A stretch of DNA of 64,000 bases from an uncultured Bacteroidales bacterium (lineage in GTDB: Bacteria > Bacteroidota > Bacteroidia > Bacteroidales > Bacteroidaceae): positions 16,637 to 80,636 of the forward strand of contig CADCAG010000016.1 of NCBI GenBank assembly GCA_902799355.1. Direction: 5' to 3'. The position numbers and the translations under genes are program-made. The notes under the pieces were generated by a model that worked only from the letters and a program-made list of their open reading frames with translations, did not search any database and was not told the origin of the DNA. Shown here one piece after another: positions 9,186-25,884 of this stretch; positions within the stretch are counted from its first letter, which is position 1; every line of letters begins with the position of its first letter.

Positions 9186-10373
9186 TTAGTACAGGAAACC
9201 AAGTAGCCAAAGAGGTATCTGGTTGTCTTTACCTATCTCCGTGTTGTAGCGTGCGTAGATAGTGTCTGGAGCATAGCGTATCTTCGCCTTGCTATTGGCA
9301 TCGCAAATACGGAACTTCAGCTCCTCATCGACAAGATAGAACTGGTCGCGTCCCTGTTGGTTGACTTTGTGGTCTTTCCATAGAGAATTGACGAAGAAAG
9401 TCTCCATCGCTGTCTGCTTGTCGACATGTATAGGATAGATGGCATAGAGCAGGTTAGAATTGTGGAGCATAATCTTCGACGGTTTCTTGGGAAAGTCCTC
9501 TCCAACGGGGTATATCATGTTCAATAGACGAGCATCGGTCAGATACTTGATGTAGTTCATCACTGTGGCGCGTGATGTCTCGATATCCTGTGCCAGCTTA
9601 CTGACGTTAGGAGCCTTGGGTCCTTCTTCAGCCAATTGGTAGAATAGTTTTTTTATCTTGGTGAGATATTTCAGTTCTATCTGCTTGATGAGCAGGATGT
9701 CCACCTCCGTCATCATGTTCATCGTCTTCAGCAGGTTCTCAGAGTAGTTGCGTTGTTCCTTGAAGAAGGGGTAGAAACCGTGGTGGATGTAGTCCTGGAA
9801 ATAGCGGTGTGGCGACACCTTAGGCAGTATCTGTTTGATGATGTGCTCGTGGTTCCTTAGTATCTCGTCGAGCGTGTAGGAGCGGAAGTTGTTGCCCGTC
9901 TGCAGGTTAATGAACTCACGGAAAGAGAAACCTCTCAAGTTGTACGACTTGACGATGCCATTGAGTTCTGGGTTCTCATCCTTCAGACGCATCACGCTAC
10001 TGCCCGTAAAGACAATCTTCAGGTAGGGGTAGAGGTCGTAGCATTTGCGGAGCTCTTGGCTCCAGTTTGGCTGTTTGAATACCTGGTCAATAAGCAGTAC
10101 GCGACCACCATGATTGCAGAACTCGCCAGCAAAGTCGGAGATGCCGTGACCTTGGAAATAGAAGTTGTTCATGTTGACATAGAGACACTGACGGTCGTTG
10201 ACATCAAACTTCTCCTTGGCATATTGTAACAAAAATGTCGTTTTGCCAATGCCACGAGTTCCCTTGATGCCTATCAGACGGTCAGACCAGTTGATCTCGT
10301 CCATCAAGGCACGACGTATGGGGGCATTTACATGCTCTACTAAATACCTATGCGTGCGGAAAAATGCTTCCAT
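9186..10373 (-). CDS. AAA family ATPase with DUF4143-like C terminus
   Basis: 395 residues. Residues about 34-50 hold a Walker A motif (GTRGIGKTTFLLQ). VLLIDQVFKQPNW is the Walker B region, with Gln where Glu is usual, followed by FTGSSVMRL, a sensor-1-like segment. A winged-helix region (SKLAQDIETSRATVMNYIKYL) and a C-terminal nuclease-like region typical of DUF4143 ATPases follow. These proteins are common and often multi-copy in Bacteroidales, and their role is unknown. The gene has its own perfect promoter, and nothing in the sequence ties it to the NRPS operon on the same strand upstream. Confidence 0.8.
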   Translation of the reverse strand: MEAFFRTHRYLVEHVNAPIRRALMDEINWSDRLIGIKGTRGIGKTTFLLQYAKEKFDVNDRQCLYVNMNNFYFQGHGISDFAGEFCNHGGRVLLIDQVFKQPNWSQELRKCYDLYPYLKIVFTGSSVMRLKDENPELNGIVKSYNLRGFSFREFINLQTGNNFRSYTLDEILRNHEHIIKQILPKVSPHRYFQDYIHHGFYPFFKEQRNYSENLLKTMNMMTEVDILLIKQIELKYLTKIKKLFYQLAEEGPKAPNVSKLAQDIETSRATVMNYIKYLTDARLLNMIYPVGEDFPKKPSKIMLHNSNLLYAIYPIHVDKQTAMETFFVNSLWKDHKVNQQGRDQFYLVDEELKFRICDANSKAKIRYAPDTIYARYNTEIGKDNQIPLWLLGFLY

Positions 10374-10619: not shown

Positions 10620-13013
10620 TCATAGATTAAATGACACAGTTCCAAGCAATATACGTCCTGGATATTTATAGGGAATATAAGTTGTGCCACCAATCTCGTA
10701 CGAAGTATTGAAAACGTTATCACAATCTAATGAGAGCTGAATCTTATTGTTGTAGCTATATTTCAGTTGTAAACCTAACAATGCATATCCACTGAGGTAA
10801 AAATCCTCACTACCTTTGATTTGTGAATTAGCTTTGTTAAGTGTTCGGGAAGTATAGCGCAGGTTGCCAGACAGCCACAAGGTATGCTTGGGCATGTGCA
10901 ACAGACGTTTTTCACCGATGAGGTTGACAATCCATGAAGGCACACTATAGATGTGATGATTGTCATAATAGTATTGATCGGCCTCAAGAGCTCGTGTTAA
11001 GGTGGTATTAAGGCGTGAGCGGAATGAAGATGTCTTGTATTCGAGTTCTGCCTCTATACCAGCAATCTTAAGACTACCTGAATTGACATATTTTGGTGCA
11101 TTCAATTCGGTACTTTGGTTGTTGCAAATTAAGTCTGTCAGTCGGTTATAGAATAAATTGACATCATAACTGAAATGGTTGGATAGAGAACCCATGAGGT
11201 CAATCTGAATGGCATCGATGTATTCCGGCATCAAGTCCTGACTTCCCCTATAGGGGTTAGAGGTATTCTGACGATAAAAATAAGGCGCATCAACAAAAGC
11301 TCGAGAATAAGATATTTTCGTACTCAGCAACTTTGAAGGCATGTAGATGAGTGCAACACGTGGAGAAAAAGCCGTAACGTTAACATCATTTTTGCGATGT
11401 TTGTTGTCGAAGCGTAAACCTGCATTTAAAATAAAGTTGTCTCGAAAATAGTGCTTGCACTGAACGAATGCTGAGAAGCTTGTCTCATGTCCATTGTTAA
11501 TGATGTTCTTTGACTCCTTAACGACGGTGGTAAAACGTTCGTAGTCTTCACCAATAAGTGACTCATTGTCGTAAAGTGTAAAATTCTCCCAATGAATGCC
11601 CGCCAATATATTTCCCTTCATGGTGCCCAGTGAGTAGGGGGCATCAATCTGTGCTATACCACCTATTGTATACTCTTCCCAGTTGATGTCCTGATAAAGG
11701 TGCTTGAATGTCTTGTAAATGAGATTGCCTTGATCGTCACGTACAGGATTGTAATCATCGTCAATGATTACATTAACTATTGAATCAGAAACGACGGCAT
11801 AATCGTAGAATCTATACTTGTCGCCATAGAGAGATACATTTAAATGGAAAAGACCAAAATTTTTGGAATACCCTAAATCGAGATGTGTCTCATCGATAGA
11901 GTATCCTATAGTATTGCCTTGGAAGTGGCGATAATTATCGTAGTCATACACCTCGCCGAACCAGGAATACTGTGGAACCTGCTTGCCATATTTGTGAGAG
12001 AGCATAAAGGTGAAATCCTTAACGCTGAGATTCAAGCCAATATCATATGACGGTTTACCTTCGTATCGTCCAATGTAAGCATAACCATCGCGAGGTGTCT
12101 GAGAATACCCAGTACCTTTAGGTATATTGATTTTCTCGCCACTGGAAGTATACAAAGATGCCCATGCAAGAATGTCGGCACCCATGAATGAAGTGCCTGC
12201 AGTAAAGTCTGCCCGATGGGTTCCAAACGAACCGTAACCATATTTCAATTTTATACCATCTACTTCACGTCCTTTTTTCGTGATAATATTGACCACTGCC
12301 GTTAATGCCACATTACCATAAAGTGAAGAAGCCGGACCACGCAGGACCTCAATATGGTCAATTTTCTCAGTACTGATGGCATAGTCGAGCTTACCGTTAT
12401 TAGTAGAACGCGCATTCAGTCGATGCCCATTTTCCATCACAAGGATTTTCTCTTGCCCAGAGGTGTAAACACCATGCATGGAATAGTTGGATATAGCATA
12501 GGCACATACCTCACTGATACCAGGGACATAGGTTGCGAGAATCTGTCCGATACTTTTGTTGTTACTCAGACAGTCAATCATCTCACGGGTGATAATAGTC
12601 ACAGGTACAGGTGCCTCATTGATGCTCTCTTCTTGACTGGAAGCAGTGGTAATGGTAGCGCTGCGACCGGACTTTAGGAGGTTTACTATATCCTCGAATC
12701 GTACAGGATCCATGGTTGAGGTATAATAAGGATTGGCATCGAGTAACATCGATACATAACGTTCGCATTCCTCGTAATTATCCTGCGCAAGATAGCAGAG
12801 TGAGAGAAGACGCAGGGCATTCTGTTTGGTGTTCCCTTGAAAAGAGTTGAAATTATTCTGTATGATGTTTATGGCTTGCTCAAGTTGTCCTAACTGATAA
12901 GCACTTTCCGCCTCAGCGTAAACCTGTCGCATGTCATTGTTGGGCTGAGACCATGCTGCAGTGGTTGATAGCAGCATGGTTGCGATAAGGATGATATGCA
13001 AGTGTTTTCTCAT
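10620..13013 (-). CDS. TonB-dependent outer-membrane receptor with TPR-like N-terminal extension
   Basis: 797 residues. Signal peptide about 1-22. Residues about 25-115 form helical TPR-like repeats (YAEAESAYQLGQLEQAI, ALRLLSLCYLAQDNYEECER) instead of the carboxypeptidase-like domain common in this phylum. The plug is at about 130-245, with VPVTIITREMI and IDHIEVLRGPASSLYGNVAL. The rest is a 22-strand-type barrel ending in LGTVSFNL. TonB receptors import siderophores, cobalamin, haem or glycans. Its ATG overlaps the NRPS stop by 4 bases, so it is translationally coupled to it and may transport the NRPS product or its metal complex. That is an inference. No SusD partner is present, which argues against a glycan receptor. 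Confidence 0.88.
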   Translation of the reverse strand: MRKHLHIILIATMLLSTTAAWSQPNNDMRQVYAEAESAYQLGQLEQAINIIQNNFNSFQGNTKQNALRLLSLCYLAQDNYEECERYVSMLLDANPYYTSTMDPVRFEDIVNLLKSGRSATITTASSQEESINEAPVPVTIITREMIDCLSNNKSIGQILATYVPGISEVCAYAISNYSMHGVYTSGQEKILVMENGHRLNARSTNNGKLDYAISTEKIDHIEVLRGPASSLYGNVALTAVVNIITKKGREVDGIKLKYGYGSFGTHRADFTAGTSFMGADILAWASLYTSSGEKINIPKGTGYSQTPRDGYAYIGRYEGKPSYDIGLNLSVKDFTFMLSHKYGKQVPQYSWFGEVYDYDNYRHFQGNTIGYSIDETHLDLGYSKNFGLFHLNVSLYGDKYRFYDYAVVSDSIVNVIIDDDYNPVRDDQGNLIYKTFKHLYQDINWEEYTIGGIAQIDAPYSLGTMKGNILAGIHWENFTLYDNESLIGEDYERFTTVVKESKNIINNGHETSFSAFVQCKHYFRDNFILNAGLRFDNKHRKNDVNVTAFSPRVALIYMPSKLLSTKISYSRAFVDAPYFYRQNTSNPYRGSQDLMPEYIDAIQIDLMGSLSNHFSYDVNLFYNRLTDLICNNQSTELNAPKYVNSGSLKIAGIEAELEYKTSSFRSRLNTTLTRALEADQYYYDNHHIYSVPSWIVNLIGEKRLLHMPKHTLWLSGNLRYTSRTLNKANSQIKGSEDFYLSGYALLGLQLKYSYNNKIQLSLDCDNVFNTSYEIGGTTYIPYKYPGRILLGTVSFNL

Positions 13014-16000
13014 AATTCTTTCATATATAGTTTTGAGTATTCCGATTCGAGCATCGTAAAATGGTCCGTCGGAATAGGTATTATCTTCATTTGCGGTTGT
13101 AATTCTTTCCAGCGTTGCAGATAGATTTCAACTTGCCGATTAAAAGCGTCGATATCAAGTGTCAGTTTATTGACTGCCAAGAAGGGATGCATGGCTCTGA
13201 AGAAAACAACATCACCTTTGAATGAAGGCATGGGCTGGCCATCAAGAAAGGAGATTACCCGTTTTTGCTGCTTCTCCCAGTCGAAAAGTTTCTGTTGTCG
13301 TTCTGGCGGCATTTGTTCAATGATACTTTGTGAAGGCATCATCTGACGTACTTCTTCGTCAGTACGAAGAGGTGTGTTTAAGACAAAGACCTTGGGGGAT
13401 TGTCCTGTCTCTGCCTGCCATTGAGCAGCACAACGATAAGCCAACTCTCCTCCTAAGCAATGACCTGTAAAGGCATAAGGAACCGCATTGCTTGGAAGCA
13501 TGTCGTGCAACAATTGTACATATCTGGCTATAACGTCAGACTTCGTCAGATTACGATATTCTTGGTCATAGTAATCGTCAATAGATGCGAACAGAAATAC
13601 CGAGTATTTCTCCCTTAACGCTTCAAAATAGTTATGAACCTGATAGGGGGAGAATCCTTGAATAGCTATCACTATAGGCTTGTCGGGGTCGTATTTGTTT
13701 AGCCAACGTCCCAAAGATAATTCGTGGCAGGCGATATTGCGTATAGTTTTATTGTTAAGAATGTCGTTAACCATCAGCTTCATACCTTTTCTCCCAGCCA
13801 AAGAAGACAATTTGATGGCATCAAGGGATGAAAGACCAAGTAGTGTCAGATCGTTAGTAACACCAATATTGTCGATTCTCAATATTTCTTTCACCAGGTC
13901 GAGTAGTATTTGTTCTTTCTGGTTTGATGGCTCTATGAGCGTATCAGTAGTATCAAGTAGCTTGCTAACAGATTCATTCAGCTGCTGACGGTCAATTTTT
14001 CCATTGGGAGTCTTAGGCATTTGATCTATTCTGATGAATTGACTGGGTACCATAAAACTAGGCAGATCTTCCCTCAGTGCTTTCTGAATATCTGGTAATT
14101 CTTTATTATTTTCAGACGTATAAAAGGCAACCAGGAATTCGACATTCCCCTGTTTATGTACAACAACAACTGTGGAAATCACTCCAGAACAATGGCTAAT
14201 CTTATTTTCTATCTCTTCCAGTTCTATCCGATAGCCATGTAATTTGACTTGATTGTCAATGCGTCCAATGTATTCTAACAAACCATCCTCGTTCCAACGG
14301 ACCAAATCGCCAGTGCGATACATTTTCTGGTCACTTAGGAAAGAACAGTCAACGAAACGTTCCTTTGTCAGTTCTTCCTGTTTCCAATATCCGCGAGACA
14401 TCTGTCGACCTATGAGACAAAGTTCACCGACAGTTCCTTGAGGAACTAAACGCCCTTCATGATCAACAACAACAGAGATACTGTTAGGAACAGGCCTTCC
14501 GATAGGAATGTTATTATACTTTTCATTCTGATTCAATATATAATAGGAAGAACAGACAGTAAATTCTGTTGGTCCGTATCCATTAATTACCTTGGTATTC
14601 CCAGTAGGAATATGCTGCATCTTCGAACCTCCCAGCATCAGATATCTGAGAGTAAGACTGGAATTACTTAGTATCTCAATGCCGAGTTGCGTACTCAAAG
14701 TAAGTCCCGTTATTTTGTTCCTGATGAAATAGTCTTTCATCCCTTCTATATCGTGACGCAACTCAGAAGAAAGAATATGAACTTGCGCACCCTTGACAAG
14801 CGGTGACAATAGGTCGTCGAGCGAGGCGTCAAAACTAAAACTTGCATGCTGTGCACAACGCTCCTCTTGCGTCAGATGCAGAAGGTTCGTGCGGTATTCC
14901 AAAAATGCACGCAAGTTTTTATGATCAATCATCACTCCCTTAGGCCTCCCTGTCGTTCCCGATGTATATATCATGTAGGCAAGTCCTGAAGGCTGTGCAA
15001 AATTGACGGGATAATCCAACTGCTCATTGAAATAGAAATCATCCATGAGCAAATGCTTCTCTCTTGGGAAATACTGCTCTGTCTGTCTATTCTTTAATAA
15101 GGTGGCAGTAGTGATTAATATGTGTGCATCGGAATCTTTCAGCATCATGGAAAGACGCTCCTTGGGATAATCGCTGTCAAGAGGAATATAGGCACCACCA
15201 GCCTTGAATACAGCGAATATAGCGATAAGGAACTCTTTGCGTCTGGGAAGCATAATGGCAACGAAGGTATCGGTGTTGACTCCCTTTTTCCTTAACGTTG
15301 TGGCCAATAGGTCTGATTTGCGATCCAGTTCAGCATAGGTAATTTCTGAAACCTCATCAACTACAGCAATGTTTTTGGGGGTAAGTTGAACTTGGCGATG
15401 GAATAAATCTACAATTGTTTCTGTTTGGTCGTAATCTAAATGTTCGCCAGTTCCTAATGATAAAATGGTCTGTTGTTCCTCATCCGTTAAGATAGGAAGT
15501 TCACAGAGACGTTTGTTCTCGGATTCAGAATTGAGGAAACCTTTAAGAATTGTATCATAGCAATGCATCAGCCTTTGGATATATGACTGAGTGTATTCGT
15601 TGCTATGGTATTCGGTATGCAAAACTAATTTGTTATTGTTGCGTATGATTTCAAAAGCCAAATTTTCTCCCGTAGCATTCTCCATCAAGGGCTGATGGGT
15701 AAACAATGCACTATCACTGGGTTTTAAGTCATCTTGGTAAGCGAACAAGATATGGCTGTTGATTGCATTGTTCATGGCTTTGATTTCTGCAAAAGAGAAA
15801 AGACTATTGCTCATACTGCCCATCAGCTGTTGCTTTGAGGCCTGAAGCAAATCCTTGACAGTCGTTTCTTGATTCCATTTGATATAGAATGGCAAGGTCT
15901 TGACGAGCATAGTCATCGTCCGTTGCGTCTTTAAGTCTTGTCGCCCTGAATAGATTGTGGCAAAAAGAGATTCCTGTGCATGCGTGTTGATACCTAACAG

Positions 16001-18382
16001 ATAGCCGAATACGGTGTTTGTTAGCACGTTAGGTGTGACATTAAGACGATTGCAAGCCTCCCTCAAATGATTGTAGTCAACAGTCAGTTCCAGATGTTCT
16101 TGTCCATAAGTGATTTGCGAATCCAGCTTCTCTGATATGGGAAGAGATGAGACTTTTATATCTCCAAACTGTTCCTCGTACCACTTTTGGGCAGCAATGT
16201 ATGCATCAGTCTTACGTAATGAGTCCTCTTCCAAAGCAACTTCATATCCTGAAAAATCTTCTTTTTTGACAGGTAATTGCTCGTAAGCATCTTTTAAGTC
16301 TTGAAGAAGAATATTAAAAGACATGCCATCAAAGATGAGATGATGGAAGTCCATAAACAAATACTGTGCTTCCGGTGTCTTTAGAAGACGGATGCGATAG
16401 AGCCTATCATTAAGTAAGTCGAAAGGATAAATCAGTTCAGACATCAAGTCGTCAAACTCCTTCTGTGTTAATGTTTCCACACTTTGATGGTAGCTCTCTG
16501 TGGCATTTCTCAATTGTCTTGGATTCCCGTGACTGTCTATCAATAACTTGGTATTAATATATGGATGGGCTTCTACTACAACTTCACATGCCTTGGAAAG
16601 TCGGTAAATGTCAACTGTCGGCTTTAGTTGAAAAAGCATTCCGTTATTATATGCCACTTCTCCTTGACGTGACATACACTCCGCATAAATACCTAATTGA
16701 GTCTGGCTAAGTGGATAGTCTTTCTGTATCTCGTAACTGAATTGTTCTGTGTGCGTGCATGCTTCAGCAATTTTCCTTGGTGTGCGATTCTCATATATCA
16801 CACGGGATGAAAGCGTGAGATTGGGACATAGTGTCTGAATCTCCATTACTCTGATACTATCGCCGCCGAGTTCAAAGAAGTCATCATCGATACCGACACG
16901 GTCAATAGACAACGTGTTTTCAAATGCATTGCAGAGTTGATGCTCAATAGCATCTGTGGGTTCTGCGTATGGTGGTCGGATGATACCCTCTGTTTTAATG
17001 GTAGGAGCAAGCAGTGCCTGGCGGTCTGTCTTTCCGCTGGGAAGAATGGGGAAACGCTCCATCCTCACGAAATAAGCAGGAACCATATATGTAGGCAGTT
17101 TGGCGAGCAAATACTCACGGATGGCTTCTTCCGATATGTTGCTGTTGGCTATATAGTAGGCACATAAGAATTGCCTGCCTTTAGTGGTAAACCCCTTCAC
17201 AACGGCATTCTTTACCCCCTCGACCTCCTTGATGGCAGTTTCCACCTCACCAGGTTCTACACGTTGGCCGTTAATCTTGACCATCCAATCCTGGCGATTG
17301 ACAAACATGAGATTGCCATCTGGTAATTGGTAAACAATATCGCCCGTGTGGAGCCATCCGCCCCGATAGAGGTCTTCTGTTAGTTCTGGTTCCTTGTAAT
17401 AGCCAGAGGCAAATGGGCCACGAACGCATAATTCGCCTTCTTCACCTGGTGCGACAGGCTTCCCCTCCGCATCCAATATGCAGTATTCTACATCAGCATC
17501 TGGCTTACCGATGGGTGTGTTATCGTATTTCTTATCAACATAATAGGAGAAGATAGCACCTCCTGTCTCTGTCTGTCCGTAGTAGTTATATATCTTGTAA
17601 TCTGAAGAGCTAATCCCTGACAGTCGTTCTGCAGCAGCAATGACAACTTTTAAATAGGGTGACTTGTTGTTGAAGTGAGCGAGTATGGAGGGAGGCATAA
17701 ATACATACTCTATCTGGTGTTTTGCCAGATAGTCTTCCAACAGTCGAATATCCTTAATGATTTCTGTTGGAATGATGTTGGCTATACCGCCTTTGGCAAT
17801 GATGGTAAATAGTTGTTTGCTGACAACGAAATACATGGGAGACGTAATACCCATCACCGTAATGTTCTCCTCATCAATGATGGCTTCATCTGTAGGAGAA
17901 ATCCTATAAGATGCGAAAGTACCCATCACGGCTTTAGGAACTCCGGTACTTCCGGAAGTATAGAATAGCACATTGATATCATTCTCCTGAGGAAGTACAT
18001 AGCTCTCTGTAGGTTCGGTGTTCTTCATTGCCTGAATTATCTCGTCATCAATCAATAAAGGAGATTGGCAATGATGTATGATATAATCGATACGTTCTTG
18101 GGGGAATTTTTCACCCATAGGGACGATGGCATGGCCTGCTAACCAAATACCTATTTCAGCTGCCACATATTCCATTGAACTCGGCAGACAAATACCGATA
18201 AAAGAGTGGGGTGGGTAATTCTTTTGTTGCAAATAACCTGCCACTCTACAGGCCATGGTAAGGAGTTGTCTGTATGTGGTCTGTCGTTGGCCATTCTGGT
18301 CAACGACAGCTATCTTGTCTTCATTTGTCTTAAATGAATCTAAAAGCCTGAGAATAAATTTTGCGTCAGTTGTCTGTGGCAT
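13010..18382 (-). CDS. two-module nonribosomal peptide synthetase, A-T-C-A-T-TE
   Basis: 1790 residues. A1 about 1-460 (YTSGSTGVPK 141-150, YGQTE 268-272, HTGD 345-348, Lys451 in SGKTDR). T1 has phosphopantetheine Ser509 in ELGGDSI. The C domain (about 553-960) has intact HHLIFDG (680-686). A2 about 985-1470 (YTSGTTGRPKG 1139-1149, YGPTE 1269-1273, RTGDL 1356-1360, Lys1462). T2 has Ser1519 in LGLSSL. The thioesterase (about 1567-1790) has nucleophile motif GHCLGG with Cys1642 and His1774. A1 shows no acidic or Asn residue in the core A4 region, so its substrate probably lacks an alpha-amino group; A2 keeps the Asp (Asp1185) expected for an amino acid. The expected product is a small acyl-aminoacyl compound. 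No epimerase, MbtH or phosphopantetheinyl transferase gene is in the window. Confidence 0.95.
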   Translation of the reverse strand: MPQTTDAKFILRLLDSFKTNEDKIAVVDQNGQRQTTYRQLLTMACRVAGYLQQKNYPPHSFIGICLPSSMEYVAAEIGIWLAGHAIVPMGEKFPQERIDYIIHHCQSPLLIDDEIIQAMKNTEPTESYVLPQENDINVLFYTSGSTGVPKAVMGTFASYRISPTDEAIIDEENITVMGITSPMYFVVSKQLFTIIAKGGIANIIPTEIIKDIRLLEDYLAKHQIEYVFMPPSILAHFNNKSPYLKVVIAAAERLSGISSSDYKIYNYYGQTETGGAIFSYYVDKKYDNTPIGKPDADVEYCILDAEGKPVAPGEEGELCVRGPFASGYYKEPELTEDLYRGGWLHTGDIVYQLPDGNLMFVNRQDWMVKINGQRVEPGEVETAIKEVEGVKNAVVKGFTTKGRQFLCAYYIANSNISEEAIREYLLAKLPTYMVPAYFVRMERFPILPSGKTDRQALLAPTIKTEGIIRPPYAEPTDAIEHQLCNAFENTLSIDRVGIDDDFFELGGDSIRVMEIQTLCPNLTLSSRVIYENRTPRKIAEACTHTEQFSYEIQKDYPLSQTQLGIYAECMSRQGEVAYNNGMLFQLKPTVDIYRLSKACEVVVEAHPYINTKLLIDSHGNPRQLRNATESYHQSVETLTQKEFDDLMSELIYPFDLLNDRLYRIRLLKTPEAQYLFMDFHHLIFDGMSFNILLQDLKDAYEQLPVKKEDFSGYEVALEEDSLRKTDAYIAAQKWYEEQFGDIKVSSLPISEKLDSQITYGQEHLELTVDYNHLREACNRLNVTPNVLTNTVFGYLLGINTHAQESLFATIYSGRQDLKTQRTMTMLVKTLPFYIKWNQETTVKDLLQASKQQLMGSMSNSLFSFAEIKAMNNAINSHILFAYQDDLKPSDSALFTHQPLMENATGENLAFEIIRNNNKLVLHTEYHSNEYTQSYIQRLMHCYDTILKGFLNSESENKRLCELPILTDEEQQTILSLGTGEHLDYDQTETIVDLFHRQVQLTPKNIAVVDEVSEITYAELDRKSDLLATTLRKKGVNTDTFVAIMLPRRKEFLIAIFAVFKAGGAYIPLDSDYPKERLSMMLKDSDAHILITTATLLKNRQTEQYFPREKHLLMDDFYFNEQLDYPVNFAQPSGLAYMIYTSGTTGRPKGVMIDHKNLRAFLEYRTNLLHLTQEERCAQHASFSFDASLDDLLSPLVKGAQVHILSSELRHDIEGMKDYFIRNKITGLTLSTQLGIEILSNSSLTLRYLMLGGSKMQHIPTGNTKVINGYGPTEFTVCSSYYILNQNEKYNNIPIGRPVPNSISVVVDHEGRLVPQGTVGELCLIGRQMSRGYWKQEELTKERFVDCSFLSDQKMYRTGDLVRWNEDGLLEYIGRIDNQVKLHGYRIELEEIENKISHCSGVISTVVVVHKQGNVEFLVAFYTSENNKELPDIQKALREDLPSFMVPSQFIRIDQMPKTPNGKIDRQQLNESVSKLLDTTDTLIEPSNQKEQILLDLVKEILRIDNIGVTNDLTLLGLSSLDAIKLSSLAGRKGMKLMVNDILNNKTIRNIACHELSLGRWLNKYDPDKPIVIAIQGFSPYQVHNYFEALREKYSVFLFASIDDYYDQEYRNLTKSDVIARYVQLLHDMLPSNAVPYAFTGHCLGGELAYRCAAQWQAETGQSPKVFVLNTPLRTDEEVRQMMPSQSIIEQMPPERQQKLFDWEKQQKRVISFLDGQPMPSFKGDVVFFRAMHPFLAVNKLTLDIDAFNRQVEIYLQRWKELQPQMKIIPIPTDHFTMLESEYSKLYMKEL

Positions 18383-18384
18383 TC

Positions 18385-19206
18385 TTATTTCTTAATAGGT
18401 ATACATAGAACAAAGGTTGTTCCTTCTCCTTCTGTCGAATCGAAAGAGATGGTACCGTGATGTCTGTTCTCGACGATATCCCGAGTGATGGACATACCCA
18501 AGCCTGTACCTTGTCCTACAGGTTTTGTGGTGAAGAAGTTCTCAAAAAGACGCCGTTTGGTTTCTTCATTCATGCCTTCGCCATTGTCCTTCAGTGTGAT
18601 AACGATGTTGTTGTCAGCCTGCTTGACGGAGATGGCAACCTCAGGTTGGTAGTCGTCGCCTGCCGTTTGTGACTTGTTCCAGACGGCATAGCTGGCATTG
18701 TTCATGAGGTTCAGAATGGCTCGGCTCATGTCTTGTGGAATAACCATTATCCTCGGCAGTCCCTCTTGGTAGTCCTCATGGATAGTGAGGTTGAACCCTT
18801 TGTGGTTAGCGCGCATGGCGTGATACGACAACCATACATATTCTTTCACCAATTTGCAGATGTCAGTGGGCAGCATTTCGCCCTCTTTGCCTCGCGATAC
18901 TAATAGGATGCCTTGTATGATGCTGATGGCACGTTCGCCGTGCTCTACGATTTTTCCCATGTTCTCCTTTAGGTCGGCAATGATGTCTTCCACCTCTTCA
19001 CGATTGTCGTCAGAGAGTTTCTCTTCATTGTCTTCCATGATGTCGTTCAGGTCGCTCAGCAACTTGGTAGACATCTTGCTGAAGTTGATGACAAAATTCA
19101 GCGGGTTTTGTATCTCATGGGCAATACCTGCACTCAGCATACCTAAAGATGCCAGTTTTTCCTGTTGTTTCAACCGCTGTCGTAAGATTTCTATCTCCTG
19201 TTCCAT
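18385..19206 (-). CDS. soluble sensor histidine kinase
   Basis: 273 residues with no membrane segment and no recognisable sensor domain. A short N-terminal coiled coil leads into an H box LGMLSAGIAHEIQNPLNFV with phosphoacceptor His30. It is followed by a long dimerisation helix pair, the N box ILNLMNNASYAVW, the G1 box DNGEGM and the G2 box TGLGMS. It is a complete cytoplasmic kinase core. Two bases separate its stop from the NRPS start and 3 bases separate it from the propeller pseudokinase upstream. Its core aligns closely with that of the pseudokinase, so the two may form heterodimers. The likely response regulator is the receiver-PP2C protein at the head of the operon (inference). Confidence 0.88.
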   Translation of the reverse strand: MEQEIEILRQRLKQQEKLASLGMLSAGIAHEIQNPLNFVINFSKMSTKLLSDLNDIMEDNEEKLSDDNREEVEDIIADLKENMGKIVEHGERAISIIQGILLVSRGKEGEMLPTDICKLVKEYVWLSYHAMRANHKGFNLTIHEDYQEGLPRIMVIPQDMSRAILNLMNNASYAVWNKSQTAGDDYQPEVAISVKQADNNIVITLKDNGEGMNEETKRRLFENFFTTKPVGQGTGLGMSITRDIVENRHHGTISFDSTEGEGTTFVLCIPIKK

Positions 19207-19209
19207 AAC

Positions 19210-21975
19210 CTATGATGCTATTGGTAATGTGATGATAAATTCTGTATATTCGTCCTTCACTGATTCCACCGTGATGTCGCCATCGTGGTTCTGTATGATT
19301 TCACGACTGAGGTAGAGGCCCACACCAGAGGCTTCACCCGTTGGTTTGGTAGTGAAGAAGGGGTCGAAGATTTTGTCGATAATGGTCGACTCAATGCCGA
19401 TACCATTGTCGCGAATGGCAATGGTAATGGCATTGGGGTGTTGTTCCACCTTGAGTGAGACGACGGGTTCGTAGGTAACGCGTGCTGCCTTCTTGACGAT
19501 GGCATATATCGCATTGCCCAGCATGCTCATGAAGGTCTTGCTCAGCATTTCGGGGTTGGCATTGATTGTCAACTCCTGACTGGGTATGTGGAAGTCTATC
19601 TTGATATGGTGGGTTGCAATCTCCTGGGCAAAGTATTTCTCCAGCATCTCCTTGTCCTGCTGTAGCAGCGAGGTCAGATTCATGCTGACACGTCCGCCAG
19701 AGCGGTCTTTCAGCATCTCCTCCATAGCCTTCAGCGTACGTGTGGTGTTGGCACCGTGCTCACCAACTTTCTCCAGATTACCTTTCAGCATGTCCAGCAC
19801 GTCCATGGTGTCCTCGTAGTTGTCCTGATCCATGTGCTCCTTCTCGTCTTCGATGTTGGCAGTGGCGTCTTTAACAAGTCCTTGTGACAGCTTGGCAAAG
19901 TTGTTGATATAGTTCAGTGGATTCAGGATGCGGTCTATCAAACCCTGCGTCAACTTACCCACCGTAGCCATTTTCTCCAGTCTTACAACCTGTTGGGTGC
20001 GTTCTTGTACCAATGTCTCCAATTGTTGCTTGTCGCGCTCCAGACGATAGAGACGCCAACGCATCAATGCATAGATGAGGACGCCCAGCAGTACGAGGTA
20101 GAGCAAAATCATGTACCACCGCATATAAATAGGTGGCGTGATGGAGAAGGCGATGCTTACGGGTTCTGTGATACGGCCAAAGGCGTCGCGAGCCTGCACC
20201 TCGAAGACGTGGCTGCCTGCCGATAGGTTGGGGTATTCCTCGTGGGTGTCGTTGTCCCATGTGCTCCAACTACCATTGTCCAGACGTGTGCGATACTGAG
20301 TCTTCAGCAGCAACGAGTGGATGTTGGTGGAGAAAGTGAAGGTGATGTGTCTGTCCTTGCTTGATAAGGCGGGCAACTCTGCTGGCATTTTTCCATAGCC
20401 ACCCCACAGTATGCTGTCTCCACCGTGCAGATAGATGGAACGTATTGAAAGGGTCGGCTTGACAGCCTTCACGGGGTCCTTGTGTATCAGACTAACCACG
20501 TTTACACCCTTGTCGCCACCCATCCACAGCAGGTCGTTATTGTGTATCATTGCCCGAACGGAGAAGTTCATCAGCGGATATGTCACGTCAGACAGCAGCC
20601 TCTGCTTGCTGCCGTCCTTCATGGCGTAAAGGTTCCTTCCTTTGTTGTCCGTCAGCCAGAGGTTGTTGCTATCGTCAGCATAGCTGAATGCAGGGTAGGG
20701 GAATGGCTCTGTTGCCGTTGACTTGACTACCGATACCTCACCTTTATATAATACCTGTGTGGCTATCTCGTCTTTGAGATCCTTCATTTGCTTAAACAGG
20801 CGCCCGTCCGTACTCTGCCAGATGTGTCCATAGAGGTTCTGCACCCAGATGGTGTGTTTGTTGTCACAATACATCTTGACGACTTTCTCAATATCGCTAA
20901 TCTTCTTGTGCTGTCGGGTGCCGTTGTCATAGAAGTAGATGCCGTCAGCCTCACCGCTATAGAATCCGTTTCCGACCACCAACAGTGACAGCGTATTATT
21001 GGTAGTCAGCTGGCTTACCTGATGGTTTGCGTTGATGCGGTAGATGCCGTCAGCGGTAGCTGCCAACAGGTCGTCACCCTGTTTGTCCAACTGCCAGCAA
21101 GCATAGGAGATGCCAGGCACCTGCTCGAAGGACTTCCCCTTCATTCGGAACAGTCCATACTGCGTGCCGGCATACAGTTCTCCTTGGTGTTTCAACAGCG
21201 ACAGCACCTCGCCACGTAGTCCTTCATGAACAGTCAGGTGGGTATATACCGAGGGGAAGCCGATGCAGAAGATACCATTGTCCGTAGCTCCCCAGATGAG
21301 GCCATGCCCGTCGTAGGTAATGAACTTTACGTTGTTGGAACACAGGCCGTTGCTCTCCGTGATGCGGAAGATTTCCTTGCCGTCTTTATACTGGAAGACG
21401 ACACCCTCACCGTCCGTCGCCAATGCTTTGAGATTGTAGTCGCCCAACTGTTGGACTTGGTTGACATGAGCCTTTCCGATAAATGTTGAGGGACCTGACG
21501 ATGGAATATGGGCTCCTTGTGCCCAGATGACGTTATTTTTATAGATGGTGTATATCTCCTTGTCGCTGACCAGGAAGTACACATTTCCGTCACGTTCCCA
21601 TATCCACTGCACCTCACCATGAAAGGCGTCTTTCTTGTTGATGCTACGCAACTCCGGACAGCCGTTGGCTTTGAATCCTACATAACCGATGTAGTTGTAG
21701 CCGCCCGTCCAGATGGTGCCTTTCGAGTCGCGGAAGAGAGCCGTTACGCGGGTTACGCCAGGCGTATGCAGCATGTGCCACTCTGCGTGGTCGTAGTACA
21801 GCAGACCTTCGAAGTTGGCCACGTAGACTGTTCCGTCTTCGCCCGTCATGATATCGAAGTTCTGGTTGTGACCACCATATTCTGTGGCAGGGTAGTTACG
21901 GATAAAAGGTATACCCTGACTCCAGCCGGCAGTGGCCATGAGTGACAATAGGATGCTCAACAGCAGTGTTCTCAT
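19210..21975 (-). CDS. periplasmic-propeller sensor with histidine-kinase-like domain lacking the phosphoacceptor His
   Basis: 921 residues from the ATG at 21975, chosen because it gives a signal peptide (MRTLLLSILLSLMATAGWSQ) and an ATGA overlap with the upstream stop; an in-frame ATG at 22038 would bury that signal. Two-component-regulator propeller repeats fill about 20-540. A Y_Y_Y-type domain (about 550-620) and one membrane helix near 625-648 (YMILLYLVLLGVLIYALM) follow. The cytoplasmic kinase core has KLTQGLIDRILNPLNYINNF, where Asp681 replaces the H-box His. The ATP site (GNAIYAI, DNGIGI, SGVGLYLS) is intact. It probably senses a ligand in the periplasm and acts through a partner kinase. 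Confidence 0.88.
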   Translation of the reverse strand: MRTLLLSILLSLMATAGWSQGIPFIRNYPATEYGGHNQNFDIMTGEDGTVYVANFEGLLYYDHAEWHMLHTPGVTRVTALFRDSKGTIWTGGYNYIGYVGFKANGCPELRSINKKDAFHGEVQWIWERDGNVYFLVSDKEIYTIYKNNVIWAQGAHIPSSGPSTFIGKAHVNQVQQLGDYNLKALATDGEGVVFQYKDGKEIFRITESNGLCSNNVKFITYDGHGLIWGATDNGIFCIGFPSVYTHLTVHEGLRGEVLSLLKHQGELYAGTQYGLFRMKGKSFEQVPGISYACWQLDKQGDDLLAATADGIYRINANHQVSQLTTNNTLSLLVVGNGFYSGEADGIYFYDNGTRQHKKISDIEKVVKMYCDNKHTIWVQNLYGHIWQSTDGRLFKQMKDLKDEIATQVLYKGEVSVVKSTATEPFPYPAFSYADDSNNLWLTDNKGRNLYAMKDGSKQRLLSDVTYPLMNFSVRAMIHNNDLLWMGGDKGVNVVSLIHKDPVKAVKPTLSIRSIYLHGGDSILWGGYGKMPAELPALSSKDRHITFTFSTNIHSLLLKTQYRTRLDNGSWSTWDNDTHEEYPNLSAGSHVFEVQARDAFGRITEPVSIAFSITPPIYMRWYMILLYLVLLGVLIYALMRWRLYRLERDKQQLETLVQERTQQVVRLEKMATVGKLTQGLIDRILNPLNYINNFAKLSQGLVKDATANIEDEKEHMDQDNYEDTMDVLDMLKGNLEKVGEHGANTTRTLKAMEEMLKDRSGGRVSMNLTSLLQQDKEMLEKYFAQEIATHHIKIDFHIPSQELTINANPEMLSKTFMSMLGNAIYAIVKKAARVTYEPVVSLKVEQHPNAITIAIRDNGIGIESTIIDKIFDPFFTTKPTGEASGVGLYLSREIIQNHDGDITVESVKDEYTEFIITLPIAS

Positions 21976-23537
21976 AGGCGAGCCTCCTTTCCTATGAATG
22001 GTTCGTACGGAATGTTTCGTCCTATGTAGTAATACCATTCTTCTCTTGTCAGATTTCTCTTAATCTTCTTTTTCAGCATTTGACGCATCATGGGCACAGA
22101 GATGAGCGACTCGGTGAGTGTACCATTCTGGTCACCGCACCAGAGATACTCTTTCTTCTCGTCGAAGGTGAAATTGAGAATCCAGCTGTTGGTCGTAATA
22201 ATCGTCATAGGCTCTATCTTGGGCTGGTCAGCCAACCACAGGTTGACTCTGCCGTCGTAGCTGGCTGAGTAGATGCGCCAGTTGATAATCTTAAGTTTTG
22301 TGACGCGTGAGCGGTGGCCCACCATCTTTTGCATCTGTCCTTGGGGGTTGATGTAGTAGATGGTACCGTCGCTCATACCGTATGTCGTAATGTTACTGCT
22401 CTTGTTGCTGGCATAGGCCGTCACCTGTCCTTTGAAGGGCAACTTGACAGTCTCTATCTGGTCGAAGCTTTTCACGATGTGCTTGCGCCCCCTGTCGTCG
22501 AAGATGCAGGGATAGTCGTCTGCGAAACAGACTGTCACGCTCTTGAAGGAGAAGGTGCGTGTGCGAGTAATGGCGCGGTTCTCAGTGTCTACCTGTGCGA
22601 TGCCGTTTTCACCAAACAGCAGGGCCTGTTTGCCGATAACCTCCATTGTCTGCAAGGCACCAATGTTGTTGACCAACAGCTCCGTTGTGTTGTGGTTGTC
22701 AATGATGAGGAAGTGTCCTGTGCGACTAATAGCATAGACGATGCCTTTCGCACGGTCAACGTACGTATCGCGGAAGTCGTAGGTGCTGTTGTTGACCAGC
22801 ACTTCGGTAGAAATCTTGTCGTATGTCTGACGGTGTTTCATCAACTCACCATAGCCGCTACATGTCACGAAATGGTTGGCTTTGTCATTAAAGAAGGCCA
22901 CGTCGTAGATGCCTCCTTTGTGCGTGGTCCACTGTTGTTTGCTCTGACTGGCAATAACCAGCGACTGATAGACAGACGATGTGTACACGTCGCCATTATA
23001 TCGTGTGTTGAAGAGTTGCGAGGCGTAGGCCAACAGTTGTGACAACTCTTGGTTGCCCGATTCTGACTGTTTGATAGAGACGTCACCCAGTTGGCGAGCT
23101 AAGGTGATGTAGCTTAAGGTGTCAGCGACACGCTTTTGGTATTCTGCTTTAGCACGCTGTTGTTCGGCGATGACACGCTCACTCTGGGCCACTTTTGATG
23201 CCTCTACTGCGCGGTGCTCCGCTTCCAAGGCGTTCTGGCGCTCTTCCTCAGCGTTGCGGCGCATCTGTTCGGCGACGGCAGTCTGCTTCTCAGCCTTGAT
23301 GCGCTGTTCGTCACTGATGCGGCGCTCTTGGTTGGCTATCTCCTCCATCTGCTCGTTGACGCGCTGCATCACAGCAGAACGCTTCGTCTGTTGGGTGAGA
23401 ATGGCTATGCGCTCCTCCAATTGCTGCGTCTTCTCTTGCTCTGCCGCATACCATTGGTAGACAACCGCCACTCCTGCGCCCATGATAAGGGCAACACCGA
23501 CGGCTATGAGGGTGCTTGTCTTGCCGTAGAATTTCAT
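21972..23537 (-). CDS. membrane-anchored coiled-coil and beta-propeller protein
   Basis: 521 residues. One N-terminal membrane segment (about 9-28, LIAVGVALIMGAGVAVVYQW) is followed by a long Gln/Glu/Arg-rich coiled coil (about 33-140) and a C-terminal region (about 195-480) of WD40-like repeats (HKGGIYDVAFF, GHRSRVTKLKIINWRIYSAS, YDGRVNLWLAD). Such proteins are usually scaffolds; without a cleavable signal the propeller could face either side of the inner membrane. It overlaps both neighbours by 4 bases (ATGA), so it is made with the phosphatase and the pseudokinase. A role as signalling scaffold is inferred from that position. Confidence 0.75.
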   Translation of the reverse strand: MKFYGKTSTLIAVGVALIMGAGVAVVYQWYAAEQEKTQQLEERIAILTQQTKRSAVMQRVNEQMEEIANQERRISDEQRIKAEKQTAVAEQMRRNAEEERQNALEAEHRAVEASKVAQSERVIAEQQRAKAEYQKRVADTLSYITLARQLGDVSIKQSESGNQELSQLLAYASQLFNTRYNGDVYTSSVYQSLVIASQSKQQWTTHKGGIYDVAFFNDKANHFVTCSGYGELMKHRQTYDKISTEVLVNNSTYDFRDTYVDRAKGIVYAISRTGHFLIIDNHNTTELLVNNIGALQTMEVIGKQALLFGENGIAQVDTENRAITRTRTFSFKSVTVCFADDYPCIFDDRGRKHIVKSFDQIETVKLPFKGQVTAYASNKSSNITTYGMSDGTIYYINPQGQMQKMVGHRSRVTKLKIINWRIYSASYDGRVNLWLADQPKIEPMTIITTNSWILNFTFDEKKEYLWCGDQNGTLTESLISVPMMRQMLKKKIKRNLTREEWYYYIGRNIPYEPFIGKEARL

Positions 23538-24703
23538 GCTTTACGTGTGAGCGTCAGCAGCGTGATGTCGTCGCTTTGCGGAGCATTTCCTGCAAAAGCC
23601 TTGACGTCGGCCATTTGGTTATCGATGATGGCTTGACAGCCCTGTCCTTTCTGTGTAGCCAGAAAAGCCATCATGCGGTCGTCGCCATATTCTTCGTTTG
23701 CTTCGTTCATGGCTTCGTTAACCCCGTCGGTATACATCACTAACGTGTCGCCAACGCCTAACGTAAGCTTTTCGTTGGAGTAGGTGATGCCAGGTACGGC
23801 ACCCACCATACAACTGGTACTTGTGGGCAACATCTCCACACGTCCGTCTGCCTTGATGATGACTGGTGAGTTGTGACCGCCATTGCTATACTCCATCTCA
23901 CCCGTCTTGACGTTGTAGATGGCATAGAATACGGTGACAAACATACAGTCTACCGACTCTTTGCTGAGCAAATCGTTCGACTTTGTCAGACACTCGCCAG
24001 GGGTGAAGCCCTGAAGGCCGATGGTGCGTATCAGTGTTCTGCTGACAGCCATGAAGATAGCTGCGGGAATACCCTTGCCGCTAACGTCAGCCATTACAAT
24101 TCCTATGTGGTCTTCGTCGATGCGGAAGAAGTCGTAGAAGTCGCCGCCCACATCCTTGGCAGGTGTCATCTTCGCTGCCAAGTCCAACTCATGGTCGTTC
24201 TCTGGGAAAGGCGGGAAGATGCGGGGAAGGATGGCCTGCTGAATTTCGGCAGCCACAGCCAGATCTGTCTTCAGTGATTCCAACTGGACGTGTTCCTGTT
24301 GCGACATCTTGATATAGTTAATCTGCTCAATGGCTTTCTCGATGGTGATGCTCAAGTCGTCCAGGTCAATGGGCTTCGTGGCAAAGTCAAAGGCACCATT
24401 GTTCATGGCCGACCTGATATTGCCCATATCACCGTATGCTGACACCATGATGCACTTCATGGCGGGGTTCTGCATCTCGTTGATCTTGGTCAGCAGTGTC
24501 AAACCATCCATTTCCGGCATGTTGATATCAGAGAGGATGATGTTGATGTCTTTCTCTTTCAGCATGAGGGTTAAGGCTTCCAAACCATTGTGGGCAAAGA
24601 AAAACTCATACTCCCCTTTGCGGATCTGGCGTCTGAAATATTGTGTCAACAGCAATTCGAGGTCCATCTCGTCGTCGACACTAAGAATTTTAACTGGATT
24701 CAT
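23534..24703 (-). CDS. response regulator with SpoIIE/RsbU-type PP2C phosphatase output
   Basis: 389 residues. A CheY-like receiver (about 5-125) has the acidic pocket VDDE (9-12), phosphoacceptor Asp59 in ILSDINMPEMDGL, and KPID. A linker helix leads to a PP2C-type serine phosphatase (about 160-388) with PAKDVGGDFYDFF, MADVSGKGIPAA, YTDGVNEA and SDDITLL, so the metal-binding aspartates are present. Proteins of this type dephosphorylate anti-sigma-factor antagonists in partner-switching systems. No STAS antagonist or anti-sigma gene lies in the window, so the target is unknown. First gene of the six-gene operon, 31 bases after a good promoter. Confidence 0.93.
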   Translation of the reverse strand: MNPVKILSVDDEMDLELLLTQYFRRQIRKGEYEFFFAHNGLEALTLMLKEKDINIILSDINMPEMDGLTLLTKINEMQNPAMKCIMVSAYGDMGNIRSAMNNGAFDFATKPIDLDDLSITIEKAIEQINYIKMSQQEHVQLESLKTDLAVAAEIQQAILPRIFPPFPENDHELDLAAKMTPAKDVGGDFYDFFRIDEDHIGIVMADVSGKGIPAAIFMAVSRTLIRTIGLQGFTPGECLTKSNDLLSKESVDCMFVTVFYAIYNVKTGEMEYSNGGHNSPVIIKADGRVEMLPTSTSCMVGAVPGITYSNEKLTLGVGDTLVMYTDGVNEAMNEANEEYGDDRMMAFLATQKGQGCQAIIDNQMADVKAFAGNAPQSDDITLLTLTRKA

Positions 24704-24733: not shown

Positions 24734-24765
24734 CAAATATACACATATTTTTATAAATGGCAAAA
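24734..24765 (-). promoter_or_regulatory. promoter of the signalling-NRPS-receptor operon
   Basis: On the minus strand TTTG (24765-24762) and TATATTTG (24741-24734), separated by 20 bases. It is the only good promoter seen upstream of the six genes, which are separated by -4, -4, 3, 2 and -4 bases. Confidence 0.75.
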
Positions 24766-24793: not shown

Positions 24794-24801
24794 TATTTTT
24801 G
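24794..24801 (+). promoter_or_regulatory. -7 box of ATP-grasp-like gene, almost leaderless
   Basis: TATTTTTG ends only 9 bases before the ATG at 24811, so the transcript would begin a few bases before the start codon. The -33 element is weak. Confidence 0.6.
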
Positions 24802-24810
24802 CAGACGGAA

Positions 24811-25884
24811 ATGAAGACACTGCATATTTTCAATCCCGAACACGAGATTGCGTTGGCTGCAAATCTGGCGCATTTTACTCCACCTCATGCAGCCAGACAG
24901 CTGAAGGCCGACCTTGGGTGGTTGCCGGCTTTGTGGGCTGACACAGACGACTATGTGCTTGTAGAACACGCTGAGGCTTCACGCAAGAATTACGAACGAT
25001 TACGCCGAAGACTGGGACGTCCTTTCACCATGTTTGTGGATCGTAGTGAGTTGTCCCACTTGGATGTACAGCAAGTAAAACCTTGGGGCTGGGATGCCGC
25101 TTTAGTCACCGATTTGTGCCGATGGGGCTTGCCTGTCCGTCTTCTGCCGGAGGCTTTCCGTCTGGATGGCTGGCGCCAACTGGCTCACCGCAGGACGTCC
25201 GCTCGCTTGCTGTCCTCGTTACGCTTAGAGGGTACTGTTGGCGAAGCTGTAGAGTGCTGCGACGTTGAACAAGTGGCAGCGTGCTTGTCGCATTGGCAGC
25301 GCGTCGTTGTCAAGGCGCCGTGGTCGTCGAGTGGGCGAGGTGTTCGTTTCTACGACACCGAGCGTCTTGGTGGTGATGGAAAATTGATGGTTGACAACTG
25401 GATTCGCAATGTCATCAAACAGCAAGGCAGCGTGATGGTAGAACCTTATTACAATAAGGTAAAAGACTTCGGCATGGAGTTTGAACGCCTTGCCAACGGA
25501 CTGGTCTGCTATCAGGGACTGTCGCTATTCCATACCAAAAACGGTGCCTACATCGGCAACCTGCTGGCAACAGAGGAGGCGAAGCGTGCACTGATGGCGC
25601 GCTATCTGCCGCTGGAACTGCTTGACAACATCAAGCAAAGGATTATCGACAACGTACAGTTGGACGACTACCAAGGTCCCTTCGGCATTGATATGATGAT
25701 TGTCAATTCTCAATTGTCAACGGTCAATTCTCAATTATTATTGCATCCTTGCGTGGAGCTGAATCTGCGTCGTACGATGGGACATGTAGCGCTGAGCCTA
25801 ACGCCTACAGACGATGACATTCGGAAGGTGATGCACATAGAACTGACAGATCATTATAAGCTGCATATAAGAAAGGCTCAGTAG
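24811..25884 (+). CDS. ATP-grasp-like protein, function unknown
   Basis: 357 residues from the ATG at 24811; a TTG 12 bases upstream lies inside the promoter box and is rejected. The N terminus MKTLHIFNPEHEIALAANL and a central VVVKAPWSSSGRGV (ATP-grasp-like phosphate loop) are visible. A later GPFGIDMMIV ... HPCVELNLRRTMGHVAL carries the metal-binding Glu/Asn pattern of ATP-grasp ligases. The family is common in Bacteroidales without a known substrate. The insert NSQLSTVNSQL between two conserved strands comes from a short DNA repeat (25701-25740). Transcribed away from the NRPS operon through a back-to-back promoter region. Confidence 0.65.
   Translation: MKTLHIFNPEHEIALAANLAHFTPPHAARQLKADLGWLPALWADTDDYVLVEHAEASRKNYERLRRRLGRPFTMFVDRSELSHLDVQQVKPWGWDAALVTDLCRWGLPVRLLPEAFRLDGWRQLAHRRTSARLLSSLRLEGTVGEAVECCDVEQVAACLSHWQRVVVKAPWSSSGRGVRFYDTERLGGDGKLMVDNWIRNVIKQQGSVMVEPYYNKVKDFGMEFERLANGLVCYQGLSLFHTKNGAYIGNLLATEEAKRALMARYLPLELLDNIKQRIIDNVQLDDYQGPFGIDMMIVNSQLSTVNSQLLLHPCVELNLRRTMGHVALSLTPTDDDIRKVMHIELTDHYKLHIRKAQ
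25701..25740 (+). repeat. short repeat inserted in frame in the ATP-grasp-like gene
   Basis: GTCAATTCTCAATT and GTCAATTCTCAATTATT copies separated by GTCAACG encode NSQLSTVNSQL. The low-complexity text interrupts an otherwise conserved segment and is like material usually seen between genes in this group. Confidence 0.6.

Follow-up and report, generated by a model that had tools for sequence, protein, structure and literature searches.

Signalling through TonB-dependent receptors is known mainly via sigma/anti-sigma routes, and in pyoverdine signalling the ligand is the cell's own non-ribosomal peptide synthetase (NRPS) product. The hybrid two-component systems of Bacteroides carry a periplasmic Reg_prop propeller on a membrane kinase. 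In the passages of PMC7186176 and PMC7782687 that bear on them, the FecA-FecR-FecI, FpvA-FpvR-FpvI/PvdS and PupB-PupR systems are described as reporting ligand uptake to the cytoplasm through a TonB receptor whose N-terminus forms a periplasmic signalling domain. A passage of PMC4211667 presents DivL of Caulobacter as a kinase-like sensor of a phosphorylated response regulator in which the phospho-accepting His is replaced by Tyr and the other motifs are kept, and one of PMC6668435 describes the thioesterase (TE) of the obafluorin synthetase ObiF1, with a GxCxG motif, a Cys nucleophile and a His before it. We analysed a window of 64,000 nucleotides from an uncultured Bacteroidales bacterium of the Bacteroidaceae (assembly GCA_902799355.1, contig CADCAG010000016.1, positions 16,637 to 80,636; coordinates below count from the first letter of the window), which holds six adjoining minus-strand genes. 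We read these, at a probability of about 55%, as a trans-envelope signalling operon with a TonB receptor as input, a probable partner switch as output, and receptor and NRPS as exchangeable pairs. The features of the operon are as follows (A, adenylation; T, thiolation; C, condensation).

24734..24764, minus strand: Bacteroidetes-type promoter motif TTTG-N19-TATATTTG, from the motif scan, the sole one of the operon
23534..24703, minus strand: receiver-PP2C (SpoIIE/RsbU-type) phosphatase, 389 amino acids (aa), from Pfam, with receiver Asp59 and the PP2C acidic residues conserved in a 10-row alignment
21972..23537, minus strand: membrane coiled-coil/WD40 propeller protein, 521 aa, from a hydrophobic-segment scan, AlphaFold2 and Foldseek
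19210..21975, minus strand: propeller sensor pseudokinase (PSK), open reading frame (ORF) of 942 aa in its long form, from Pfam and alignments
18385..19206, minus strand: soluble histidine kinase (HK), 273 aa, from Pfam, with the motif GIAHEIQNP and His30
13010..18382, minus strand: NRPS of layout A1-T-C-A2-T-TE, 1790 aa, from Pfam and motif alignments
10620..13013, minus strand: TonB-dependent receptor, 797 aa, with a helical TPR-like N-domain, plug and barrel, from Pfam and predicted structure
12630..12950, minus strand: N-terminal domain of that receptor (aa about 22-128), the receptor part that co-varies most with the signalling propellers

The ORF calls leave intergenic gaps of -4, -4, 3, 2 and -4, and in operon order Pfam labels the products Response_reg+SpoIIE; WD40-like propeller; Reg_prop+HATPase; HisKA+HATPase; A-T-C-A-T-TE; and Plug+barrel. 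ORF positions and Pfam labels thus confirm the six-gene operon that the original prediction, made from the letters of the window, had described. For the third ORF the most likely start is 21975 and not 22038, giving an ATGA overlap with the preceding gene; it was placed there because relatives such as L064 begin at that site. Scanning with the Bacteroidetes promoter consensus, which we take to be TTTG-N17-22-TAnnTTTG, returned 10 motifs in the window against 0.7 expected (0 of 100 shuffles get to 10). None lies inside the operon, and the next on the minus strand, at 10440-10410, stands ahead of a downstream AAA ORF. The single promoter claimed ahead of the operon therefore agrees with the scan, and spacing and promoter-motif layout support the claim that the six genes are transcribed together, although motifs are not proof of transcription. 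The genome assembly (82.9% complete, 2.87 Mb, 78 contigs) contains one cassette copy, one NRPS condensation domain and one phosphopantetheinyl-transferase match; by cassette we mean the four signalling genes and the receptor, with or without an NRPS.

Judged by its gene content, the cassette works like FecA/FpvA cell-surface signalling, yet it is not a member of that group. It also has an outer-membrane TonB receptor with an N-terminal domain proposed to signal inward, but this domain is helical, and the cassette has two propellers, a split kinase pair and a receiver-PP2C. Membership was rejected because no STN domain was found (Pfam; window receptor and nine relatives) and the operon has no FecR or sigma gene, neither a FecR-type membrane sigma regulator nor an extracytoplasmic function (ECF) sigma gene being present among the six ORFs and two flanking ORFs scanned. 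From glycan uptake of the Sus/polysaccharide utilization locus type it differs in that Pfam found no CarboxypepD_reg N-terminus in the window receptor or the nine relatives, and no SusD among the six window ORFs. The receiver-PP2C shares its layout with Pseudomonas RssB, aligning end to end with the RssB model, though far under its cut-off (119.9 of 700 bits). The cassette also resembles RsbU/RsbV/RsbW, as we take that system to be, in its intact PP2C acidic residues and in the STAS and RsbW-like genes that some relatives carry next to it and the window genome carries elsewhere; unlike in RsbU and RssB, its input would come from a TonB receptor together with a pseudokinase/kinase pair, and its target lies outside the window operon. 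As in DivL, the PSK has its His replaced and the remaining kinase motifs kept, but it has Asp, a periplasmic propeller and an adjoining soluble His kinase. Like the Bacteroides hybrid two-component systems, it carries a periplasmic Reg_prop propeller, but the cassette is split over separate ORFs, and Pfam found no DNA-binding or helix-turn-helix (HTH) domain in the operon proteins. The likeness to ObiF1 is limited to the TE motif, with GxCxG, Cys at the nucleophile position and a preceding His in the window TE, and gives no indication of beta-lactone production; the domain order of the window NRPS differs.

The four signalling genes constitute a chassis of receiver-PP2C, transmembrane-coiled-coil-WD40 protein, propeller pseudokinase (His to Asp) and soluble His kinase, which across the loci compared is kept together and usually followed by a TonB receptor. 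In the phosphatase, D188, D206, D326 and D378-D379, which presumably bind metal, are invariant in the 10-row alignment. The WD40 protein has a single N-terminal hydrophobic segment (aa 8-26), and its AlphaFold2 model (mean predicted local distance difference test score, pLDDT, 83.7, but under 70 as far as roughly residue 80) consists of one helix at aa 19-159 followed by a 28-strand propeller of seven blades that matches WD40 structures in Foldseek. The predicted helix, about 200 A long if straight, would fit a stalk spanning the periplasm, with the topology inferred from the one N-terminal hydrophobic segment. The PSK comprises a signal-peptide-like start, a Reg_prop-type region, a hydrophobic stretch at aa 641-659 in the long ORF, a DHp domain and a HATPase that keeps the ATP-binding motifs, DNG and GVGL being conserved. 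At D702 of the 942-aa ORF (codon 19933-19935, motif GLIDRILNP) the DHp has Asp where His is expected, as do 80 of 80 rows (the window and 79 genus relatives) and 12 of 12 from other genera, so that the pseudokinase label given earlier holds in the window and in all aligned relatives. The HK cluster keeps its His-Glu motif in 60 of 62 rows, the other two looking like unrelated ORFs of the same stretches. The idea that the PSK regains His where no HK adjoins was rejected, Asp being present in 59 rows with and 21 rows without an HK ORF in the locus, some of the latter representing contig ends or HKs missed by ORF calling. Among 12 genomes whose cassette has no adjoining HK, 11 carry an HK elsewhere, which counts for a PSK-HK pair. 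PADLOC returned no anti-phage defence match for the four signalling proteins.

The recurrence of this cassette was examined in several sets of relatives. A PSK was found at E<=1e-30 in 70 of 200 genus genomes, and 79 genus PSK loci, a selection among the matches listed, were fetched; by tblastn they held WD40 in 77, PP2C in 70, HK in 63, a downstream TonB receptor in 71 and an NRPS in 17. Six of the eight loci without a receptor (L093, L095, L101, L103, L114 and L141) are cut by a contig end, and L140 and L116 have 2.3 kb and 7.4 kb left downstream. The NRPS stands before the receptor in three loci (L071, L100 and L105), as in the window, and after it in 12, the receptor not being reached in two; it adjoins the receptor in 15 of 15 genus loci showing both. 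By chance, about 0.2 of 79 loci would have an NRPS within 7.5 kb on the right strand (calculated by hand, two NRPS loci per 3-Mb genome being assumed). The cut locus L033, which has no full PSK, reads PSK end-HK-NRPS. A family survey of 201 genomes gave a PSK at E<=1e-60 in 12 outside the genus, and all 12 cassettes were fetched, with a receptor in 11 and an NRPS in five, always after the receptor. In an order survey of 295 genomes, five match the PSK: the window genome, a member of another family in which the cassette is complete (L247), and three that match in the kinase part alone. Of 80 loci from a second collection, 10, all named, combine a PSK with cassette neighbours, while the other 70 match mainly the kinase part and, to judge by their titles, come from other orders; among the named loci, Prevotellaceae bacterium HUN156 (L162), which we take to be a cultured rumen isolate, carries a close cassette, in the order PP2C-WD40-PSK-HK-receptor-A-T-TE-like gene. 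Separately, in L235 from another genus the order is broken and the parts are still together, with HK and PP2C on the other strand and then PSK-WD40-receptor-NRPS. No description of this cassette was found among open-access papers.

The original prediction had suggested checking relatives for these six genes in the same order; that all six form a single conserved unit was rejected, the core consisting of five genes with the NRPS optional. Since most fetched relatives have the same gene order without an NRPS (an NRPS occurs in 22 of 91 fetched cassettes, genus and other genera together, about a quarter), the cassette is, on gene order, first a receptor-linked signalling unit to which the NRPS is an add-on. 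In most fetched cassettes the receptor comes without an NRPS, which is also in keeping with sensing of a foreign ligand, where the receptor detects a compound or nutrient of neighbours and the circuit switches on a small NRPS product against them, so that receptor and product need not match. The varied genes that otherwise lie downstream (transporters, mannitol dehydrogenase, glycoside hydrolase and methyltransferase among 20 ORFs scanned) also accord with it. We nevertheless consider it doubtful, on the comparisons of receptor and NRPS that follow.

Co-evolution was assessed on 48 of 80 rows (79 loci and the window), all five genes being required and sequences below 60% of the window length dropped. 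Pairwise identities of the signalling genes correlated with one another at 0.67-0.81, and those of the receptor with them at 0.29-0.34; by this measure the chassis genes evolve together, and the receptor much less so with them. The nearest chassis to the window, that of L064 (PSK 0.76, PP2C 0.89), has a receptor at just 0.40, while the five nearest receptors among the 48 loci (L071, L100, L105, L111 and L118, at 0.51-0.67) all come from NRPS-bearing loci with PSKs at 0.47-0.52, which argues against foreign-ligand sensing. NRPS presence over the same 70 rows (16 with NRPS) required six changes on the receptor tree versus nine on the PSK tree, both built quickly with a simple model, and this better fit to the receptor likewise disfavours a foreign ligand. 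With contig-cut loci omitted (66 rows) the counts were five versus nine, and with all available rows, for which the sets differ per tree, six versus 11; the label was more clustered than in 500 shuffles on both trees. In L118 the receptor adjoining the NRPS was chosen by hand, a choice that favours the exchange of receptor and NRPS, and with the other receptor the count without contig-cut loci is six and not five. The terminal module of the NRPS correlated with the receptor at 0.22 (49 of 2000 permutations as high) versus -0.00 to 0.09 with the chassis, in 15 loci, L033, L101 and L103 (cut) and L136 (reductase end) being omitted. The link between NRPS and receptor that had been predicted is thus supported by adjacency and by the tree changes, while uptake of the compound is something that we infer.

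The receptor was also compared part by part. The structure prediction for its N-domain shows five helices at aa 26-116 (mean pLDDT of the whole receptor model 69.7), and the domain has an ANAPC3/TPR Pfam match, under its cut-off. N-domain identity correlated at 0.55 with WD40, 0.53 with the PSK propeller and 0.43-0.47 with the cytoplasmic parts; the plug reached 0.07-0.17 with the signalling proteins and the barrel 0.29-0.35. Out of 1000 resamples, the N-domain exceeded the barrel in 996 for WD40, 997 for the PSK propeller, 994 for HK and 966 for PP2C, but in 830 for the kinase part of the PSK. When the cytoplasmic parts were removed, the N-domain kept partial correlations of 0.31 with WD40 and 0.27 with the PSK propeller; the corresponding values were 0.16 and 0.06 for the plug, and 0.07 and 0.04 for the barrel. 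On these figures the receptor is a mosaic whose N-domain follows the chassis, most closely the two propellers, and whose plug and barrel do so less. As a separate observation, L099 carries downstream of its NRPS a 254-aa receptor fragment, 68% identical to the window receptor; it follows an A-T-TE-like gene and a receptor that is complete but unlike it, and is possibly a trace of receptor replacement. The NRPS product might instead act inside the cell, with receptor and NRPS merely co-inherited neighbours in a mobile block, as the position of the NRPS before the receptor in some loci and after it in others, and the operon's lack of an exporter, would allow. Since five NRPS-bearing loci with distant chassis have plugs 0.82-0.89 identical to that of the window (0.56 in L064, the nearest chassis), and different NRPS layouts land next to the same receptor group, we hold this to be very improbable.

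The NRPS itself has its catalytic motifs in place, with, by eye, HHLIFDG in C and Ser in both T domains, and with GHCLGG in TE. Its A2 code, DADQMGGVCK, keeps Asp235, in what we take to be the numbering of the amino-acid-binding residue; the A1 code, FVKSIAYGAK, is without it, as in L033, L100, L101, L103 and L105, and A1 therefore probably loads an acid without an alpha-amino group. All ten A2 code letters are identical between the window and L103, though their PSKs are only 49% identical. Substrate calling was dropped, as the A1 and A2 codes fit no code known to us. Cys occupies the TE nucleophile position in 12 of 15 genus NRPSs, the window's among them (C-terminus alignment), and in four of five from other genera (motif), and a passage of the ObiF paper describes catalytic Cys in a TE as less common (PMC6668435). 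As a mark of cassette NRPSs alone it was not upheld, the non-cassette NRPS L024 having Cys too.

At least five layouts occur among the cassette NRPSs. Pfam gave A-T plus about 240 residues and no scored TE in L064, L098 and L099; C-A-T in L071, L091, L118, L131 and L138, with TE scored in some only; A-T-C-A-T-TE in the window and L076; C-A-T-C-A-T ending in a weak lipase match in L111; and three A and two C domains running to the contig end in L103. In L136 (9089-17840, plus strand) a C-A-T-C-A-T-reductase NRPS, whose reductase release is expected to yield an aldehyde or alcohol, belongs to a cassette that also has a MatE exporter. Judged by BLAST and outside the Pfam scan, L033, L100, L104, L105 and L108 have two adenylation domains and L101, cut by the contig end, one. 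The presumed rarity of NRPSs in Prevotella-like bacteria was not borne out and was rejected, as 62 of 200 sampled genus genomes, the window's own included, match at E<=1e-100. A survey of rumen biosynthetic gene clusters, in the parts concerned with these bacteria, counts 934 NRPS clusters in Bacteroidaceae and includes NRPSs among differentially expressed Prevotella clusters (PMC8241843), so NRPSs as such are already known in Bacteroidaceae/Prevotella.

A siderophore operon, which the original prediction had also raised, would have the NRPS make an iron chelator, the receptor import its ferric form, and the signalling genes tune production to iron or to the returning siderophore. The receptor does adjoin the NRPS, as in siderophore systems, and partially matches CirA, PfeA and siderophore-receptor models, and an A1 without Asp235 may take an aryl acid or some other substrate that is not an amino acid. 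The best receptor matches, however, fall equally to haem and B12 families, with haem, B12 and siderophore all far under cut-off, and the A-T-TE-like NRPSs of L064, L098 and L099, with one adenylation domain, are small for a siderophore. Pfam found no chelator-building, reductase, metal-handling, esterase, ABC importer or exporter gene among the six; for chelator-building, reductase, importer or exporter genes no search was made in the rest of the genome. This left the idea without direct support, and we regard it as unlikely.

In the signalling operon that we favour, binding of a ligand by the receptor would be relayed via the helical N-domain to the periplasmic propellers, those of the stalked WD40 protein and of the PSK. 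The PSK would pair with the soluble HK and control phosphorylation of its His30, the phosphate would pass to receiver Asp59 and switch the PP2C, and the PP2C would dephosphorylate a STAS protein, freeing its target from an RsbW-like kinase and changing transcription. The receptor probably recognises the NRPS product or a mimic. We propose that plug/barrel and NRPS are swapped jointly, since the receptor would recognise that product or its metal complex, and that the window version would therefore form a self-sensing loop. More tentatively, and as a possibility in which we place less than even trust, the cassette may represent a new Bacteroidales trans-envelope signalling class, with a mosaic receptor whose N-domain stays with the circuit while plug and barrel are swapped with the NRPS, a WD40 stalk and a PSK/HK pair leading to a partner switch, and new self-made signals plugged in with their own receptor.

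Partner switching is the probable output because simpler STAS-RsbW-pseudokinase-kinase-PP2C operons exist in another family of the order, where the order STAS-RsbW-short membrane PSK-HK-PP2C was seen in two of three loci (L248 and L250, the RsbW of L250 recognised by BLAST only) and L249 has two PSKs-HK-PP2C. The short membrane PSK without a propeller, with HK and PP2C, at L248:5984-10000, L250:6297-10500 and L249:5000-9400 looks like a simpler form of the cassette. In 15 of 95 loci the stretch fetched includes STAS- or RsbW-like ORFs, which in L124 and L128, for instance, stand immediately ahead of PP2C, and the window genome has, outside the operon, four STAS matches and RsbW-like matches on contigs C17 and C28. 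As a further observation, HD-domain family ORFs follow the cassette in L121, L122 and L124 (Pfam for L121; a RelA/SpoT-domain ORF in L124), and a look-alike by eye of that family lies in the window genome at L252:1316-1882, upstream of a STAS gene with two genes between.

Several observations weigh against this mechanism. The linkage of the N-domain could partly stem from recombination breakpoints and not from contact, even though the plug lies closer to the chassis than the barrel does and yet shows the lower correlation; the excess of N-domain over barrel is also clear for the cytoplasmic HK. The correlation of NRPS and receptor is modest and based on few loci, and nearest-neighbour prediction of NRPS presence is about as good from HK as from the receptor (11 of 12 for each, with agreement of 0.94 and 0.96). 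No NRPS was shown in 69 of 91 fetched cassettes, some cut by contig ends, and most receptors would therefore see something not made alongside; in the second collection the NRPS adjoins the receptor in one of 10 named loci, that of HUN156. HK is absent in cis in 12 genus cassettes with a visible downstream region, a count that leaves out L093, L114 and L141 (contig ends) and the short locus L140, and in one genome, G330 (85% complete), a genome search found no HK anywhere. The STAS and RsbW genes are not in the window operon, nor does Pfam find an exporter gene among its six genes.

Two ORFs flank the operon.

9186..10373, minus strand: AAA_14/DUF4143 ATPase ORF, from Pfam, with its own promoter motif (10440-10410)
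24799-25884, plus strand: divergent ORF upstream of the operon, of a family present in 19 loci including the window

The AAA ORF family occurs in 25 loci including the window, often right after the receptor or NRPS, and the window ORF matches the PADLOC candidate PDC-S01. Despite this recurrence it was rejected as a seventh operon gene because of its own promoter motif, and is probably a separate transcription unit. The divergent ORF has no Pfam or NCBIfam match.

What these comparisons suggest is that related bacteria repeatedly plug different small-molecule factories, each with a matching receptor, into the same circuit, which looks like sensing of their own or similar compounds. If true, a receptor acting through a split kinase on a partner switch, with swaps of receptor and enzyme, would amount to modular small-molecule sensing for rumen Prevotella, and the role of small NRPSs in gut Bacteroidales would become testable.

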